Assembly (NCBI GenBank): GCA_003159495.1 | Contig: PLPI01000093.1 | Coordinates: 1,266 to 48,942, forward strand | Source of the DNA: a candidate division FCPU426 bacterium | GTDB lineage: Bacteria > Oederibacteriota > PGYV01 > Palsa-1178 | DNA: 47,677 nt | Reading direction: 5' to 3' | Shown: positions 4,149-20,972 of the stretch, piece by piece | Numbering within the stretch: position 1 is the stretch's first letter | Layout: each line of letters begins with the position of its first letter | Program-made: the position numbers and the translations under genes | Notes under the pieces: generated by a model | What the model saw: the letters and a program-made list of their open reading frames with translations, nothing else | The model's database searches: none | What the model was told of the DNA's origin: nothing

Positions 4149-5006
4149 TCAATTTTTCAATTTAACAAGTTTTTCGCTGATTTCCCACAATTTTTTTGCG
4201 GCAACCTCGTCAAGGGCCTGCGGTGCTGGAGTTGTTATGCGGCAGTCGGAGAGGTATTTTCCCGTCACGCCTTCCAGCTCGGGCGATGATGCGGCGTAAA
4301 TTGATGTCTTCGCCCCTTTTTCAGGCGTTGACATTAAAAAACCGAATACTGAATAAAAAAAGTTTGATAAAACACCGCCGGAATTGGCGAATCTGGTATG
4401 GACAACCCCCGGATGCAGGCTGTTTGAGGTGACTTTGCTTCCCTTTAATCGCCTTGCCAATTCTGACGCAAAAAGGATGTTTGAGAGTTTTGACTGCGCA
4501 TAAGCAGTCATATCGGCATACTTTTTTTCCGACATAAGATCGTCAAAATTGATGCGCCCCATAATATGCGCCATTGATGCAACTGTTACGACGCGGGCCT
4601 TTCCGCTTTTTTTCAGGACTGGCAGAAGTAAATTGGTGAGAAGAAACGGCGCCAGGTGGTTTACACCGAATGTCCATTCAAAACCGTCGGCTGTAAGGGA
4701 TCGTTTTCCGAACACCCCACCGGCGTTATTAATAAGCACGTCTATCTTTTTATATTTTTTTCTTATATCCGCAGCAAGTTTTCTGACATTTTTCAGGGCC
4801 GAAAAATCAGCCAGCATGAGGTCCACTGATTTACTGCCGCTTTTTGAAACCACATAATCCACGCCGTCCTGCCCCCGTTTTTTGTCCCTTGCAACCATAA
4901 CCACCCTGGCACCGAGTTTTGCCAGGCCAAGGCTTGTCTCCAGCCCGATACCGGAACTGGCTCCGGTAACAACAACAGTTTTGCCTTTCATGATATTTTC
5001 ATTCAT
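4149..5006 (-). CDS. Short-chain dehydrogenase/reductase (SDR)
   Basis: A 285-residue classical SDR of the retinol-dehydrogenase/WW-oxidoreductase-like subgroup. The nucleotide-binding motif TGASSGIG is at about residues 14-21, NNAGG at about 92-96, and the catalytic YAQSK (YxxxK) at about 168-172. The Arg/Lys pattern after the glycine motif (VARDKKRG) suggests NADP(H). Family members reduce or oxidise small lipophilic alcohols and ketones, and the substrate cannot be read from sequence. GGAGGG stands 8 bases before the ATG. It is divergent from the lipoprotein gene at 5185 and follows no obvious operon. Confidence 0.9.
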   Translation of the reverse strand: MNENIMKGKTVVVTGASSGIGLETSLGLAKLGARVVMVARDKKRGQDGVDYVVSKSGSKSVDLMLADFSALKNVRKLAADIRKKYKKIDVLINNAGGVFGKRSLTADGFEWTFGVNHLAPFLLTNLLLPVLKKSGKARVVTVASMAHIMGRINFDDLMSEKKYADMTAYAQSKLSNILFASELARRLKGSKVTSNSLHPGVVHTRFANSGGVLSNFFYSVFGFLMSTPEKGAKTSIYAASSPELEGVTGKYLSDCRITTPAPQALDEVAAKKLWEISEKLVKLKN

Positions 5007-5098
5007 AACACCCTCCGGTTTAATTATTTGATATATTATACCATATTGACGCAGTCAAAACGGACAGCGGAACGGAAAAATCTTAACATAACAAAAAC

Positions 5099-5127
5099 TT
5101 GAAATCAGCCATTTCTGTGTGTATACT
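5099..5127 (+). promoter_or_regulatory. Sigma-70-type promoter of the stalk lipoprotein
   Basis: TTGAAA (5099-5104) and TATACT (5122-5127) with a 17-base spacer. It would give a leader of about 50 bases before the ATG at 5185, with AAGGAG just before the start. Confidence 0.65.
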
Positions 5128-5184
5128 TTGTCAGTAATAAGCTGTTAAAAATCTTTCCACAGGGGCAAAAAAGGAGATCAATTT

Positions 5185-6426
5185 ATGAAAAAGTTTTTGT
5201 TTTTGATTGTCATTTCCCTTTTTATGGTTTTTGCATTTATCATCGCCGGTTGTACCAAATCATCGCCGACAACTGCCACAACCGCAACGATGACTCCGGA
5301 CGCGGCACAGCAGACCCAGACCGCCGAAGCTCAGCTACCCACCAGCACGCCCACTATGACCCCAAATATGACCGCCACTGAAGGCGCTGTTGAGACTAAA
5401 ACTGCTGTTGCAATTCAGCCGACCTTAACCCAGACATATATAGCCCGGGTAAATGAAACGGCTACCGCCAACGCAAACGCGTCGGCGACTGCGACTGCCC
5501 AGGCGCAGGAAACATCAATAGCGGTTGCACAGGAAACAGCCACAGCACAGGCGCAGCAAAATGCGACATATGCCGCCCAGCAGACCCAGACAGAGCAGGC
5601 CACAGAAACAGCGGTGGCACAGTTAACCGGGACAGCGGTTGCAAACCAGCCCGCCGCCACCCAGACAGCCGTAGCCCGGGCAAATGCAACGGCAACGGCA
5701 CAGGCAAACGCCACGGCTACGGCAATAGCAAATTCACTGGGCACAGTATCCGGTACGGTTACGCTTCCAGGTACCAAACCCGGAGAAACTTATCAGGTGA
5801 TACTAATCAAGAATATAACCGATGTGGCAAGCGGCTCGTCCAATATACAGGTGAGCGGCATTTTGACCACAAACACAACAATTCCTTTTACAATAACCAA
5901 TGTTCCGGCCGGTTCTTATTTTTTAATAGCGGCCACGATGAGTTCAAACGGCGCCCCGACATTTGGTGATTATGTAGGCGTCTGCGGCACCGTTTATCCG
6001 TCGTTCCCGTCGTCGGCGAATGTGGTTATTACCGGCGGTAACACAACCACAGACAACATTACAGCCGCGGCAGTTTCAAAGGCAATCAGCGGCACTATAA
6101 CACTTCCCTCGCCAGTCGTAACCGCTCCGGTTAATTTCCAGGTAATGATATACACCAGCCAGCAGTCTTTTACGGACGGTTCGCAGATGTTTTCCGACGG
6201 CGGTACGCTGGGCGGCACAGGCGGACAGATAACCAGCCAGAGCGCCACCTACACAATTCCCCTGCTTCTTCCGGGGACATATTACCTGGAAGCATGGGTT
6301 GATATGAACGGCGGTTCAAATATAATGGCCGGAGATTACGTATACAGTACTACAATTACCATAGGTAATCCAATAAGCGATATGGCGGGCGATATTACGC
6401 TTACGGGTTCAAACGTACAGCCGTAA
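5185..6426 (+). CDS. Lipoprotein with Thr/Ala/Gln-rich stalk and two beta-sandwich repeats
   Basis: A 413-residue secreted lipoprotein. The signal peptide ends in a lipobox (IIAGC, Cys23). Residues about 27-188 are an almost pure Thr/Ala/Gln/Asn mixture with recurring TATAQ and ANATATA units, likely an extended and possibly glycosylated stalk. Two related beta-rich domains follow (about 190-295 and 298-413), each opening with the same pattern: VSGTVTLPG and ISGTITLPS. These resemble the carboxypeptidase-regulatory or transthyretin-like fold. AAGGAG precedes the ATG, a good promoter lies at 5099-5127 and a strong terminator at 6443-6472, so the gene is monocistronic. No enzymatic motif is visible. 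A role as a surface spacer or adhesin is inference. Confidence 0.85.
   Translation: MKKFLFLIVISLFMVFAFIIAGCTKSSPTTATTATMTPDAAQQTQTAEAQLPTSTPTMTPNMTATEGAVETKTAVAIQPTLTQTYIARVNETATANANASATATAQAQETSIAVAQETATAQAQQNATYAAQQTQTEQATETAVAQLTGTAVANQPAATQTAVARANATATAQANATATAIANSLGTVSGTVTLPGTKPGETYQVILIKNITDVASGSSNIQVSGILTTNTTIPFTITNVPAGSYFLIAATMSSNGAPTFGDYVGVCGTVYPSFPSSANVVITGGNTTTDNITAAAVSKAISGTITLPSPVVTAPVNFQVMIYTSQQSFTDGSQMFSDGGTLGGTGGQITSQSATYTIPLLLPGTYYLEAWVDMNGGSNIMAGDYVYSTTITIGNPISDMAGDITLTGSNVQP
5265..5745 (+). repeat. Low-complexity Thr/Ala/Gln-coding repeat
   Basis: A degenerate repetitive tract (ACAGC, GCAAC and CAGAC-type units) encoding the stalk of the lipoprotein. The repetition creates long open frames on the opposite strand that are not genes. 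Confidence 0.8.
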
Positions 6427-16623: not shown

Positions 16624-17499
16624 TCAACAGGTATCATGTATGCTTCCAGACGCCGTATTAAGCGCATACAATATTCCGCTATATGAAATATAAAAAATAT
16701 TACCATTATAATATGCCCCCGGTGAGCGTATGCTGTTATGAGTGCTTGTTGTCCAAAGCGTACCGCCATTTACGGATGATATGCTGTATATTTTCCCTGC
16801 TTCTGTTCCAAAACACAAATTGCCCGTATTTCCCTGACTTGGAGGAATATAGGTAAGTCCAGACAATATTGCCGCCCCATTACTTGAATTAACCTGCCAT
16901 ATTATTGTTCCATTGTCAGCGTTTAATTTATATACCATGCCGCTATTAGTTGAAACGGCAAGATAATTGCTGTTCGCTTCGTTATAATATAAAGGCGTTG
17001 AATAAATAATTTGGCCTGTTTTAACTTCCCATACTGTCGAACCTGTTATGGCATCATATGCTCCGAGATATCCGTCGTTGGATGCAACAAATATTGCCTT
17101 TCCGTTTGTGGCATTAGCGCAATTTCCAGCAGCCAGTGCGGTTACAATCTTCCCACGAAGAACGTGTGTCCATATAGTTGTTCCATTTTGGGTCGAATCA
17201 AATGCCGTCAGAACGCCGCCGGGCGTGCATGTGTACATATAAACATGGTTATTAATAGCCAAAGAAACAAGGGAAGAATAGCCTACTGAATCGTAAGAAC
17301 CACCTAATGTGGATTGCCATTTAAGGCCTAATGTTGAAATCGAATTTGCGGTTGTTCCACTTCTGTATTCATCACCCCTGAATTGGGACCAGTCAGAGGC
17401 GAATAACATTATCGAATCTAATATAAACATTAATAATATGATAATTAACAGGCTTATCCTTACATATTGCAAGCCTGGCGTTATTTGCCTTTCTTTCAC
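16624..17499 (-). CDS. Short PQQ-type beta-propeller repeat protein
   Basis: A 291-residue protein with an N-terminal hydrophobic segment (about 14-34, signal or anchor) and PQQ/YVTN-like propeller repeats. It shows the opening WSQFRGDEYRSGTT typical of outer-membrane PQQ-like barrels and repeated blade ends such as GVLTAFDS, GYLGAYDA, GMVYKLNADNGTIIWQV, GKIYSISSVNGGTLW and GILYALNTASG. It stops abruptly after about five to six blades with SIHDTC, shorter than the usual 350-400 residues, so the 3' end may be truncated. AGGAG precedes a GTG start. It begins 15 bases after the putative immunity gene and is likely co-transcribed with it and the Rhs tip. Its base composition is AT-rich compared with the cellulase genes. 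Confidence 0.7.
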   Translation of the reverse strand: MKERQITPGLQYVRISLLIIILLMFILDSIMLFASDWSQFRGDEYRSGTTANSISTLGLKWQSTLGGSYDSVGYSSLVSLAINNHVYMYTCTPGGVLTAFDSTQNGTTIWTHVLRGKIVTALAAGNCANATNGKAIFVASNDGYLGAYDAITGSTVWEVKTGQIIYSTPLYYNEANSNYLAVSTNSGMVYKLNADNGTIIWQVNSSNGAAILSGLTYIPPSQGNTGNLCFGTEAGKIYSISSVNGGTLWTTSTHNSIRSPGAYYNGNIFYISYSGILYALNTASGSIHDTC

Positions 17500-17514: not shown

Positions 17515-17964
17515 TTAATTAGTATTATTTTTTTCTCTTTCAAATATTACATTAATATCTTTTAATACCTGTTCTTTTTTATAAACATATTCTTCTTTTT
17601 CATCATAAATCACTTCTATTGTTTTGTTGTCTTTCCAATTAGCTGTAACAGAGCAGTTTCGGGGTGAAGTAAAAAAATAATTACCTCTATCGAAATCTGT
17701 AATGCCAATAATAAACGGAATCCATCCTTTCAAAACACAAACAGCCGTATAAGTCGAACTTGATGCACCACCACAGGAATTAACATAAGCAATAATCTTA
17801 TATTTTCCATCTGGGGACATCTTGTTCTCTAAAATAGAATCACTACAAAAATAACAATTTATTATTATATATAAAAGCAACAACAAAGCTACTGTTCCAA
17901 ATAGTATTAGTTTAATGCTTCCAATACCAGATTTCATTTTTTTGTTTTTAATAACATTGTGCAT
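17515..17964 (-). CDS. Membrane-anchored candidate immunity protein
   Basis: A 149-residue protein with one N-terminal membrane helix (about 19-40) and a small soluble domain containing MSPDGKYKIIAYVNSCGG, the opening of a family seen in DUF5412-like proteins. A second patch, SPRNCSVTANWKDNKTIEV, follows. It overlaps the 3' end of the Rhs toxin-tip gene by 17 bases. That is the classic position of the immunity gene of a polymorphic toxin, and a membrane anchor with an exported domain would suit neutralising an incoming toxin in the periplasm. The immunity role is inferred from position only. An in-frame ATG nine codons later is an alternative start. Confidence 0.65.
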   Translation of the reverse strand: MHNVIKNKKMKSGIGSIKLILFGTVALLLLLYIIINCYFCSDSILENKMSPDGKYKIIAYVNSCGGASSSTYTAVCVLKGWIPFIIGITDFDRGNYFFTSPRNCSVTANWKDNKTIEVIYDEKEEYVYKKEQVLKDINVIFEREKNNTN

Positions 17965-19021
17965 AATAATTTATCCCTTTTTCTATCATTATTTCATCAT
18001 ATATTTTCTCGCCATATGCATTTTTGGGCACATCTTTTAATTTTATTCCTCTAATATTTGTATCGAACCAAGCCACTTTATCTTGAATAAACCCTGCAAC
18101 AGCTTGCAACGTATTTTCTGTAAACCCTACTTTAGTTCCAGTTGCACCATAGTTGAAATTACCAAACTCGTCATACTCTATGTTATGTTTTTTATAATCC
18201 CATACTGAATAGGGTAAAACTTTAACAATCCAAACCATTGCGCCAATAGTTGAATCGTCAGAATTTTTTATATTTTGATCCACAGATACTCCTCCTGGTG
18301 ATATTGGCGCAACACTGTCGTTTCCATCATTGTCTTGACTGTTTGTTTTGTTGTCGTCTTTACAATCGTCATATTCAACTTTTGCCGAGTTGCCAGTTGT
18401 AAAAAAATCTACTACCTTATTTATAACATCAGCAAACCAATTTTCCCCATACACATCCGTTACATTTAACACATTGTTTCCGCAATAATCATACATGTTG
18501 ATGATTGTTTTGTCGTTAACAACCGGATCCATCTCAACAAACCTGCCCGTCTTTCCGTCATACCAGCGTGCAGCAAAATAATATAACCCGGCATCATTGT
18601 CAAACATATTCGACGACATTCCGCATTTGCTTATGCCTTTTGTCATACCCTTGCCAAACGCGTCATACGTTTCCTTTTCCACCGGCATACCGTTATCATC
18701 ACAGACCAACATTACATTTCCAATGCGGTCGGGATAATAATAATAATTTACCAAACAATCCCCTGTTGTGTCTGAATATGTCCTGTTTTCTTTCAATAAT
18801 ACGCCTCCGGGACCGCGTGTATATGCGATTATTACCTTGCCATTTGCCATTTCAGCTACCAGGTCACGGCCGTCGTAATAGAATGTATGAATAATATTAT
18901 CCTTGTTGCTTACCCGTGTTTTAAGCCGCTTCTCAGCGTCATATGAATACATTATATGAGTTCCTGTGCTTGAATTAATCGCGTCCGTTAGCATATCCGT
19001 ATCATCATGGGTTAAATTCAC
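17948..19021 (-). CDS. Rhs C-terminal tip with type 44 toxin domain (5'-truncated)
   Basis: A 357-residue remnant from a GTG start. Residues about 20-170 are RHS/YD repeats and the conserved Rhs core end: YSYDAEKRLKTRV, YYYYPDRIGNVMLV, AGLYYFAARWYDGKTGRFVE. A hypervariable tip follows. Its last part, WDYKKHNIEYDEFGNFNYG and ATGTKVGF ... EIMIEKGINYY, matches what I know of polymorphic toxin type 44. The reading frame is open upstream of the GTG, and codons 19022 to about 19131 still encode YD-repeat sequence (YNYDPIGERTG, TYDGNGNAT). The gene is thus the 3' end of a much longer rhs gene cut by a hairpin element at 19132. No signal peptide or secretion domain remains, so it is likely an orphan tip. 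A candidate immunity gene overlaps its end. Confidence 0.8.
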   Translation of the reverse strand: MNLTHDDTDMLTDAINSSTGTHIMYSYDAEKRLKTRVSNKDNIIHTFYYDGRDLVAEMANGKVIIAYTRGPGGVLLKENRTYSDTTGDCLVNYYYYPDRIGNVMLVCDDNGMPVEKETYDAFGKGMTKGISKCGMSSNMFDNDAGLYYFAARWYDGKTGRFVEMDPVVNDKTIINMYDYCGNNVLNVTDVYGENWFADVINKVVDFFTTGNSAKVEYDDCKDDNKTNSQDNDGNDSVAPISPGGVSVDQNIKNSDDSTIGAMVWIVKVLPYSVWDYKKHNIEYDEFGNFNYGATGTKVGFTENTLQAVAGFIQDKVAWFDTNIRGIKLKDVPKNAYGEKIYDEIMIEKGINYYAQCY

Positions 19022-19131
19022 ACCGCCTACATCCGTTGCGTTTCCATTGCCGTCATACGTCCAGGACGTACCTTCGTCCCCGGTTCTTTCACCTATTGGA
19101 TCATAATTATAAGACAGAAAGTCAGGAGTGT

Positions 19132-19201
19132 CGGACCTTGTAAATTGACTTTTTTAATAATCAAACTTGAACTCACTCAAAAAATCAATTTACAAGGTCC
19201 G
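19132..19201. repeat. Perfect-looking inverted repeat at the Rhs truncation point
   Basis: Arms 19132-19154 and 19179-19201, about 23 bp with one mismatch, begin CGGACCTTGTAAATTGA. The outer flanks are GTGT and CCCCC. Hairpins of the GGTCNGACC type commonly border REP-associated (Y1/IS200-like) transposase elements. The rhs reading frame ends in homology exactly here. No transposase is recognisable inside. Confidence 0.7.
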
Positions 19202-19361
19202 CCCCCACTAACCCCCATGACGTAGGCACCACAAGGGGGGTGGCAATTTGCCCCCATCCTTTTGCAAGTTCCGGATCGCGCCTTCGCATGTCTTTTATGT
19301 ACCCTCCCGGCTGAATATAAAAATCTGGGTCAGATCCTGCTTCATTATCCTATTTCTCCCG

Positions 19362-19538
19362 TCATTTCCCTCTGCCATTCTTTTTCCCTGCTTTTCCCGC
19401 CCCTGTCTTTTTTACCCTCTTAGGAAGCTTCTTCCCCTTGCTCGCCGCGTTCCACTCATCCACATCAACACCCTGGGCCTCCAGCTTTTTCCTGTTAACA
19501 TTAAAATAAGCTTCCTGAGCCTTGCTTACATAAGGCAT
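19362..19538 (-). CDS. Small basic protein, 58 residues
   Basis: A short gene starting MPYVSKAQEAYFNVNRKKLE and containing GVDVDEWNAASKGKKLPKRV, followed by a Lys/Gly-rich tail. GGCGG stands before the ATG. The pattern (MPxxSKAQ at the start, a W-N-x-A-S-K-G-K-K-L-P-x-R-V block) is one I associate with small, phage- or mobile-element-linked proteins of unknown function that occur widely. It lies inside the segment bounded by the hairpin at 19132-19201 and the related arm at 19778-19805. It is too small for any catalytic role to be visible. Confidence 0.6.
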   Translation of the reverse strand: MPYVSKAQEAYFNVNRKKLEAQGVDVDEWNAASKGKKLPKRVKKTGAGKAGKKNGRGK

Positions 19539-19660
19539 ATCCCACCGCCTGTTTTGAGATGATAAGACAGAAACATCTGCCGGCAGAAAGATATACCTGC
19601 AGTTATGGTTATTTTATTGAATTTTATATCAGGAATGACCATGTCTCCGTTTTCAGCCAT
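19526..19660 (-). CDS. Small open frame, 44 residues, uncertain
   Basis: An ATG at 19660 preceded by GAGGCGG opens a 44-residue frame starting MAENGDMVIPDIKFNKITIT. It ends 13 bases inside the 58-residue gene, so the two could be coupled. No homology is recognised. The good ribosome-binding site is the only positive evidence; it may be a fragment of a longer protein. Confidence 0.3.
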   Translation of the reverse strand: MAENGDMVIPDIKFNKITITAGISFCRQMFLSYHLKTGGGICLM

Positions 19661-19777
19661 TGCCGCCTCATATTATGTGTGTTAGTCCCATTGTTTATCG
19701 TAACCGGATTATATAACAAAAACCGGCAATTAACAATGAACAATTACGGCTTTTTGCGTAAATATATTTGTAAAAAT

Positions 19778-19805
19778 CAGGGGTGTCGGACCATGTTAAT
19801 TGACT
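19778..19805. repeat. Second arm related to the 19132-19201 hairpin
   Basis: TCAGGGGTGTCGGACCATG followed by TTAATTGACT repeats the TCAGGAGTGTCGGACCTTG / TAAATTGACT seen at 19122-19150 in the same orientation. The two direct copies bracket a segment of about 630 bases, consistent with the ends of a small mobile element or its remnant. Confidence 0.6.
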
Positions 19806-19820
19806 ATTCCAATCCGTTCC

Positions 19821-20972
19821 CTATCCACCAGTCCTTATTACATTTGTAATAACATTTATCATGATTTCCTTTTCCTTAGGACTGCTTACGGCCGCAAGCA
19901 GCGTCAGCGCGGCAAGGGCCCCGTCGCTTACCCGCTTTTCACCTTTGTTTAAGTAAAGCATTCCGTTCTTTGACATATAGTGCAGAAAAAGTATTGCGGC
20001 CAGCCTTTTGTTGCCATCGGTAAAGGGGTGGTCCTTTACCGCGAAATAAAGCAGGTGGCTGGCTTTTTCTTCCACGGTTGGATACAGGTCCTTGCCGTCA
20101 AATGTCTGGTTTATAGCTCCTATTATGGATTTGAGTTTTGACATCGGACCCGTGCCAAAAAACGCAGATCCTTTTTTGTATTCTTTTTTGGCCCTTTCAA
20201 CAACGCTTAAAGCTTCTTCAAATTTGAGTTCATATGTCGGCGTCAATTTGCCGGTGCTTTTCAGCGCCATATCATCATAATCCTGAAGAATCTCCAGCGA
20301 CCCCGAATAACCCGAAATCAGGTTTATAAGCTCGACTTCCATGCCTATTGAACCCGGCAATTTTACGGCCGCACCAAGGGCGCCGACCACGGACTTTAAT
20401 TTTTTTAAACCCTTCAATTCTCTTTCCATGCGTTTTATATTCACCGCGTAACCGTCTTTAATATATCTTTTCAACACACCGGAAGCCCATATCCTGAACC
20501 TTACCCCTGCCTGTGATTTTACCCTGTAACCGACCGAAATGACCACATCCATATTATAGTAGTCCACATTGTACTTTTTCCCGTCAGAAGCAGTTGTTGC
20601 AAATTTTGCAACAACTGAGCCGCTGTCAAGTTCGCCTTCCCTGAATACATTATCTATATGCCTTGATATTACCGACTTATCCCTGCCAAAAAGGGCTGAC
20701 ATTTGATTTAAATTGAGCCAGACTGTTTCATTATGAAGTTTTACCTCCAGTTCAAAACCGCCATTTTCTTCATTGAAGATTTTCATTTCTCCATAAAGGG
20801 CAGGTTCTTCTTCAGATATAAAATCACCGGCGTCTTTATGGGAAATCATATACGCCTTCCCCATTTTGCCCGCTTTTATTGTGCCATTTTTAACTTTTTT
20901 AAAAACCGCCACCCTGCTGATGCCCATTAGTTTCGCCAGCTCCGGTATGCTGTAATACTCTTTTTTATCCAA
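19821..20972 (-). CDS. HTH-RhuM-Fic/DOC fusion protein
   Basis: A 383-residue three-part protein. Residues about 1-55 form an excisionase-type helix-turn-helix (YYSIPELAKLMGISRVAVFKK). Residues about 70-190 are a RhuM-family domain (VWLNLNQMSALFGRDKSV, RVKSQAGVRFRIWAS). Residues about 200-383 form a Fic/DOC domain with HPFTDGNKR near 316, the HPFxDGNxR AMPylation/phosphotransfer loop. Fic/DOC enzymes transfer AMP or phosphate to target proteins; RhuM has unknown biochemistry. The N-terminal HTH suggests that it regulates its own gene, and a perfect palindrome at 21008-21040 lies just upstream. The start is TTG with GGGAG six bases before it. No separate antitoxin gene is adjacent. Confidence 0.85.
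   Translation of the reverse strand: MDKKEYYSIPELAKLMGISRVAVFKKVKNGTIKAGKMGKAYMISHKDAGDFISEEEPALYGEMKIFNEENGGFELEVKLHNETVWLNLNQMSALFGRDKSVISRHIDNVFREGELDSGSVVAKFATTASDGKKYNVDYYNMDVVISVGYRVKSQAGVRFRIWASGVLKRYIKDGYAVNIKRMERELKGLKKLKSVVGALGAAVKLPGSIGMEVELINLISGYSGSLEILQDYDDMALKSTGKLTPTYELKFEEALSVVERAKKEYKKGSAFFGTGPMSKLKSIIGAINQTFDGKDLYPTVEEKASHLLYFAVKDHPFTDGNKRLAAILFLHYMSKNGMLYLNKGEKRVSDGALAALTLLAAVSSPKEKEIMINVITNVIRTGG

Follow-up and report, generated by a model that had tools for sequence, protein, structure and literature searches.

What does an rhs fragment preserve when its toxin domain has lost the rest of the gene, and does the small gene that overlaps the end of the toxin belong with it? 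We examined this in a window of 47,677 nucleotides (the whole stretch of DNA that was analyzed) from a candidate division FCPU426 bacterium. The window contains an orphan Rhs tip ORF at 17948-19021 (minus strand), which starts at a GTG codon and encodes the C-terminal 357 amino acids of an Rhs protein. Upstream of the GTG, the frame continues without a stop to about 19153 (open frame of 401) and offers no further start codon. The Rhs repeat-associated core at residues 119-192 (18446-18667, minus strand; TIGR03696, 55.5 bits, cut-off 32.5) is followed by an Ntox44 domain at the C-terminus, which is the Rhs order of a core ahead of a variable tip. The N-terminal delivery part and the full YD-repeat shell are absent, and therefore the ORF is an orphan tip and not a complete Rhs effector.

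The tip frame runs only a few codons into a REP-like hairpin of 70 nt at 19132-19201 (arms 19132-19154 and 19179-19201). ORFs of at least 30 amino acids in 19181-19900 contained no Rhs sequence beyond the hairpin, and the frame is cut there as the original prediction had proposed. Folded as DNA, the hairpin had a free energy of -19.3 kcal/mol (z -8.4), and 0 of 200 shuffled sequences were equally stable. It represents a repeat family with 17 matches, which lie at several places in the genome; a half copy (83% over 41 nt) is located at 19773-19813, on the far side of the Rhs-free region. On another contig (C114, locus L012), two Y1_Tnp genes (57.6 and 57.0 bits) adjoin half copies of the hairpin repeat. 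Because half copies stand beside Y1_Tnp genes, the hairpin resembles REP elements and the genes resemble their RAYT transposases, a class to which we presume both belong. Palindromic repeats at several places together with RAYT-type (Y1_Tnp) genes are likewise found in REP/RAYT systems, and the RAYTs would mobilize the repeat. Two further ORFs were observed in this region, both on the minus strand: a 58-residue ORF at 19362-19538, starting with MPYVSKAQEAYFNVN and without a Pfam match, and an ORF at 19821-20972 that adjoins the half copy and combines HTH, RhuM-type, and Fic domains.

Only two Rhs-core matches exceeded the cut-off in this genome, on contigs C85 (the window) and C34, and both are truncated tips. 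The two fragments start at the same repeat end and in the same frame, with D-T-P-D-F and D-T-T-D-F, respectively. The element may either capture rhs tips or merely break rhs genes, two cases being too few to tell. The tip on C34 (locus L003, 748-1902, minus strand) has a phospholipase A2-like end with CYKNHDMC, for which PF00068 gave 21.7 bits and did not reach its cut-off of 32.1. A full-length rhs parent was not found in the assembly, which is 97.8% complete in 145 contigs; long repetitive rhs genes can drop out of such drafts. The orphan rhs tips of Salmonella Typhimurium likewise lack the conserved delivery part, but there a full-length rhs gene adjoins the orphan (PMC7043789, accessible part). 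The tip had also been proposed to serve as a donor cassette for full rhs genes. This role lost its footing as the leading reading, since the only two Rhs-core matches over the cut-off are themselves truncated tips.

The toxin type was examined with the PF15607 profile. Residues 251-355 of the tip (17957-18271, minus strand) matched Ntox44 with 41.8 bits (cut-off 24, E 1.5e-10), confirming the type 44 toxin that had been proposed from the sequence; the motifs cited for it, EYDEFGNFNYGATG and EKGINYY, are both present in the tip ORF. The domain resembles Ntox44 as described by Zhang et al. (2012) in its C-terminal position on an Rhs frame, its all-helical prediction, and its DxK and GNxxxG motifs (D21, K23, G33, N34, and G38 of the domain). 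Among 76 Ntox44 homologues, these five residues are conserved in 60, 74, 76, 75, and 76 sequences, respectively. The AlphaFold2 model of the toxin (103 residues, mean pLDDT 81.2) consists of four helices, in agreement with the 'All-alpha' fold given in the accessible text of Zhang et al. (2012). The window toxin differs from that description in lying on an orphan tip and in its DxxxD motif, which reads ExxxD; the first position is Asp in 69 of the 76 homologues and a gap in the other 7. The profile score keeps it within the family, whereas a motif-strict definition would exclude it. The model had no Foldseek match at E 0.001 or better and a best VIA-align Z of 5.0 (rmsd 3.7, 85 aligned), and the Ntox44 toxin of Pantoea had no sequence match in the PDB.

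The candidate immunity gene at 17515-17964 (minus strand) encodes 149 amino acids, with an N-terminal membrane helix and then a DUF5412-like beta domain, and its start overlaps the toxin end by 17 bases (17948-17964, minus strand). The overlap by an anchored small protein had been predicted and agrees with the ORF coordinates. AlphaFold2 supports the anchor, with a helix at residues 6-37 followed by seven strands (mean pLDDT 82.9); the single anchor is a model-based call, because a second hydrophobic stretch lies near residue 72. Ahead of the ATG, inside the toxin coding sequence, is a ribosome-binding-site-like AAGGGAT (17974-17980, minus strand; read from the sequence, unscored). The protein contains Cys40 and Cys64, and this 24-residue spacing recurs in 5 of the 7 training partners described below, an arrangement that would fit a disulfide formed in the periplasm, beyond the cytoplasm. 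The DUF5412 profile (PF17428) matched residues 17-79 with 22.5 bits (E 1.1e-4), missing the curated cut-off of 25. The match begins in the N-terminal membrane segment and extends across the SPDGK...CG region, and we consider the protein related to DUF5412 but do not file it as a member. Single-sequence searches of its own genome, viral contigs, plasmids, and phages found no close relative other than itself. The immunity model had no Foldseek match at E 0.001 or better, and its best VIA-align hit, part of an S9 peptidase (Z 6.1, rmsd 3.6, 89 aligned), had a Z within the common range of the tool; fold comparison of the toxin and immunity models thus gave no convincing solved-fold match and no mechanism, although either protein may still have a known fold. 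A PQQ beta-propeller ORF with a short-looking C-terminus (16624-17499, minus strand) begins 15 bases beyond the stop codon of the immunity gene and may be cotranscribed with that gene.

With a probability of roughly 70%, we read the locus as a stranded Ntox44 toxin-immunity pair, in which the immunity protein carries a periplasmic beta domain and acts outside the cytoplasm. The delivery part of the rhs gene would have been lost at the REP-like hairpin, while the Ntox44 domain and its cognate immunity gene were kept. The single N-terminal helix would hold the immunity protein in the inner membrane with the beta domain in the periplasm, where it would bind Ntox44, be it incoming toxin that has yet to reach its target or the product of the orphan tip itself. 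Because the pair has no delivery part of its own, protection or persistence as a remnant is the most plausible explanation for its presence, and we infer that protection is now the main reason it is kept.

The alternative that survives best is decay, in which the pair would be a fossil left passively when REP/RAYT activity broke an rhs gene, with a toxin that is inactive or not translated at all. We give it somewhat under even odds. The missing delivery part speaks for it, as does an internal GTG as the only start, without a convincing ribosome-binding site. At the first DxxxD position the window has Glu, in contrast to the Asp of all 69 aligned homologues that are not gapped at this position, and this ExxxD may leave the window toxin with little or no activity. 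Sigma-70-like promoter matches were no more frequent than in shuffled sequences (11 vs a shuffle mean of 9.6), and the promoter and terminator scan was uninformative. Nevertheless, the whole remaining frame is open through both the Rhs core and the toxin, the immunity gene is complete and preceded by an AAGGGAT site of its own, and the change from Asp to Glu is conservative.

The reading as a toxin-immunity pair was pursued in other genomes, with the toxin taken as the starting point because the immunity candidate has no close relatives and only a DUF5412 match below the cut-off. A plasmid search with the window toxin gave 13 records; in one Pantoea and one Enterobacter record, a second gene overlaps that of the toxin by 23 bases, and its product has an N-terminal hydrophobic segment. 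The window toxin alone confirmed no relative in the genome contigs, where an alignment of four Ntox44 domains (A1) was needed. This yielded 80 loci, the best 80 of 131 relatives, many of them from close Pseudomonas. A co-directional ORF of at least 100 amino acids was present at the toxin end in 76 of the 80 loci, and 4 had no ORF in the partner position. The partner ORF starts 23 bases inside the toxin gene in 60 of the 76 cases, and 67 of the 76 pairs have the same relative frame as the window pair, although both counts were obtained with a partner-finding script that favors starts near the expected overlap. On clustering at 85% identity, 65 of 77 partner proteins (window included) remained.

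The topology of the partners was compared with that of 942 other ORFs of 100-220 amino acids from the same loci. One N-terminal hydrophobic segment and none later was found in 72 of the 76 partners vs 72 of the 942 controls (p 3e-64). The charge before the anchor exceeded the charge after it in 61 of 76 partners, consistent with an N-in orientation, and 12 of 76 had lipobox-like ends under a loose pattern. The partners of loci L034, L066, and L095 were set aside as unlike. Behind the other Ntox44 of the window's phylum (genome G018, locus L014) lies a lipoprotein-like gene that the partner profile described below did not match. In Paenibacillus larvae phages (L019, 2106-2693; L020, 2818-3405), Ntox44 is followed by a gene on the opposite strand; one of the two Ntox44 proteins is annotated with a signal peptide. 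An Azospirillum locus (L036) has two tandem DUF5412-like partners behind one Ntox44 (4324-4764 and 4900-5325), as in immunity arrays.

Since the same kind of anchored partner stands behind Ntox44 in many distant bacteria, it is probably the antidote of the toxin, which it would bind and neutralize. If the antidote is anchored with its domain outside the cytoplasm, this is where it would encounter the toxin, and neutralization would thus be extracytoplasmic. Such immunity fits poorly with the label of Ntox44 as a cytoplasmic RNase, a label that rests on prediction in papers including Zhang et al. (2012), as far as their accessible text goes. If the label were correct, the anchored partner could instead block entry at the membrane or hold the toxin there, with no inhibition in the periplasm. 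This seems unlikely to us. Papers do call Ntox44 a predicted RNase or nuclease in the parts available, and Zhang et al. (2012) suggest blocking of this kind for CdiI and Imm17; those, however, are described in the accessible text as two-helix membrane proteins, whereas the Ntox44 partners carry a sizeable domain after the anchor and some have the lipobox-like ends noted above.

We next turn from position to homology, on which the assignment of the window gene as an extracytoplasmic antidote also draws. A profile HMM was built from seven partners (from Marinobacterium, Treponema, Azospirillum twice, Phenylobacterium, Thiobacillus, and an Elusimicrobia genome), which were selected partly for their likeness to the window gene. 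These and the window gene have a common SPDG...CGATT-like pattern, mostly with a cysteine ahead of it. The HMM, from which the window was excluded, matched the window gene with 36.4 bits (E 8e-10 among 3273 pooled ORFs), and the next-best window ORF scored 4.6 bits. When the membrane part was removed, the window gene still scored 34.2 bits (E 3.2e-9), indicating that the membrane helix alone does not make the match. Of the ORFs of the 80 loci that were not used for training, 21 matched with an E of 1 or better; 19 of them directly follow Ntox44 (p 2e-30), and one of the two exceptions is the additional tandem partner of L036. With the membrane part removed, 11 such ORFs reached this threshold, 9 of them in the partner position (p 8e-14). 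The remaining partners, mostly from Pseudomonas and enterobacteria, resembled the profile weakly, with an hhalign probability of 96.6% that includes the membrane part. The immunity position first assigned to the window gene is borne out: it is a small gene directly 3' of the toxin, and its relatives are likewise placed directly behind Ntox44 in several phyla.

The specificity of the family was examined in three sets of genomes. Among the 20 genomes and 2 phage records from which chosen loci came, all 10 profile matches adjoin Ntox44, most of them being training members. In 45 genomes of the window's phylum, 4 matches were found in 3 genomes, and Ntox44 adjoins only that of the window (3 of 4 without). 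In 385 genomes of another class, there were 12 matches in 11 genomes, of which only a training member (G050) adjoins Ntox44 (11 of 12 without). The stand-alone members adjoin argS-, murD-, ffh-, and proC-like genes (names read from translations), with no Ntox44 near. Two points had been named as decisive for the prediction: the type 44 match, which was found, and the company of the small gene, whose fold-family relatives proved to lie mostly away from Ntox44. The family is not tied mainly to toxin loci, and the domain is therefore not specific for immunity, though the genes that follow Ntox44 nearly always share its topology. We therefore regard the fold as a general anchored domain with one branch that accompanies Ntox44. 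A further alternative casts the 149-residue protein as a housekeeping member of a general DUF5412-like envelope family, placed behind the toxin by chance. We consider this very unlikely: such neighbors and the DUF5412 score below the cut-off favor it, but homologues recur directly behind Ntox44 in several phyla, with or without the membrane part in the comparison, and most pairs share one relative frame.

The partner was also predicted to be a new immunity family. At the database level this is reasonable, as Table 2 of Zhang et al. (2012), in its accessible form, lists no immunity protein for Ntox44 ('Bacterial toxin 44', PF15607), and only 3 of 30 partner-type proteins matched Pfam DUF5412 at E 0.01 or better. 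The available text of PMC9635880 places Ntox44 among characterized nuclease domains and cites Ma et al. 2017a for it, and that of PMC6099711 describes E. coli Rhs-CT3-8 with the immunity proteins Rhs-CTI3-8. From this citation and this list, tests of an Ntox44 pair from E. coli may have been published before. Three Ntox44-partner regions used as queries gave no match in E. coli genomes. The literature searched, whose coverage left an E. coli Rhs-tip study outside, contained no name for the anchored Ntox44 partner, and no paper in it named DUF5412.

As a single locus, this is an ordinary kind of stranded toxin-immunity pair. What is new here, and new to us, is the anchored partner of Ntox44 across phyla. 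A broader reading, which we hold only tentatively and consider doubtful as a whole, is that Ntox44 is an envelope toxin and not a cytoplasmic RNase, that one ancient anchored DUF5412-like family neutralizes it across phyla, and that the many lone DUF5412-like genes of bacterial genomes are partly a reservoir of orphan immunity directed at this single type of toxin. The conserved anchored partner provides a candidate immunity family for the widespread Ntox44, for which the reference survey, in its accessible part, lists none. From it we would expect the toxin to encounter its antidote outside the cytoplasm, and it suggests a possible role for part of the uncharacterized DUF5412-like genes.
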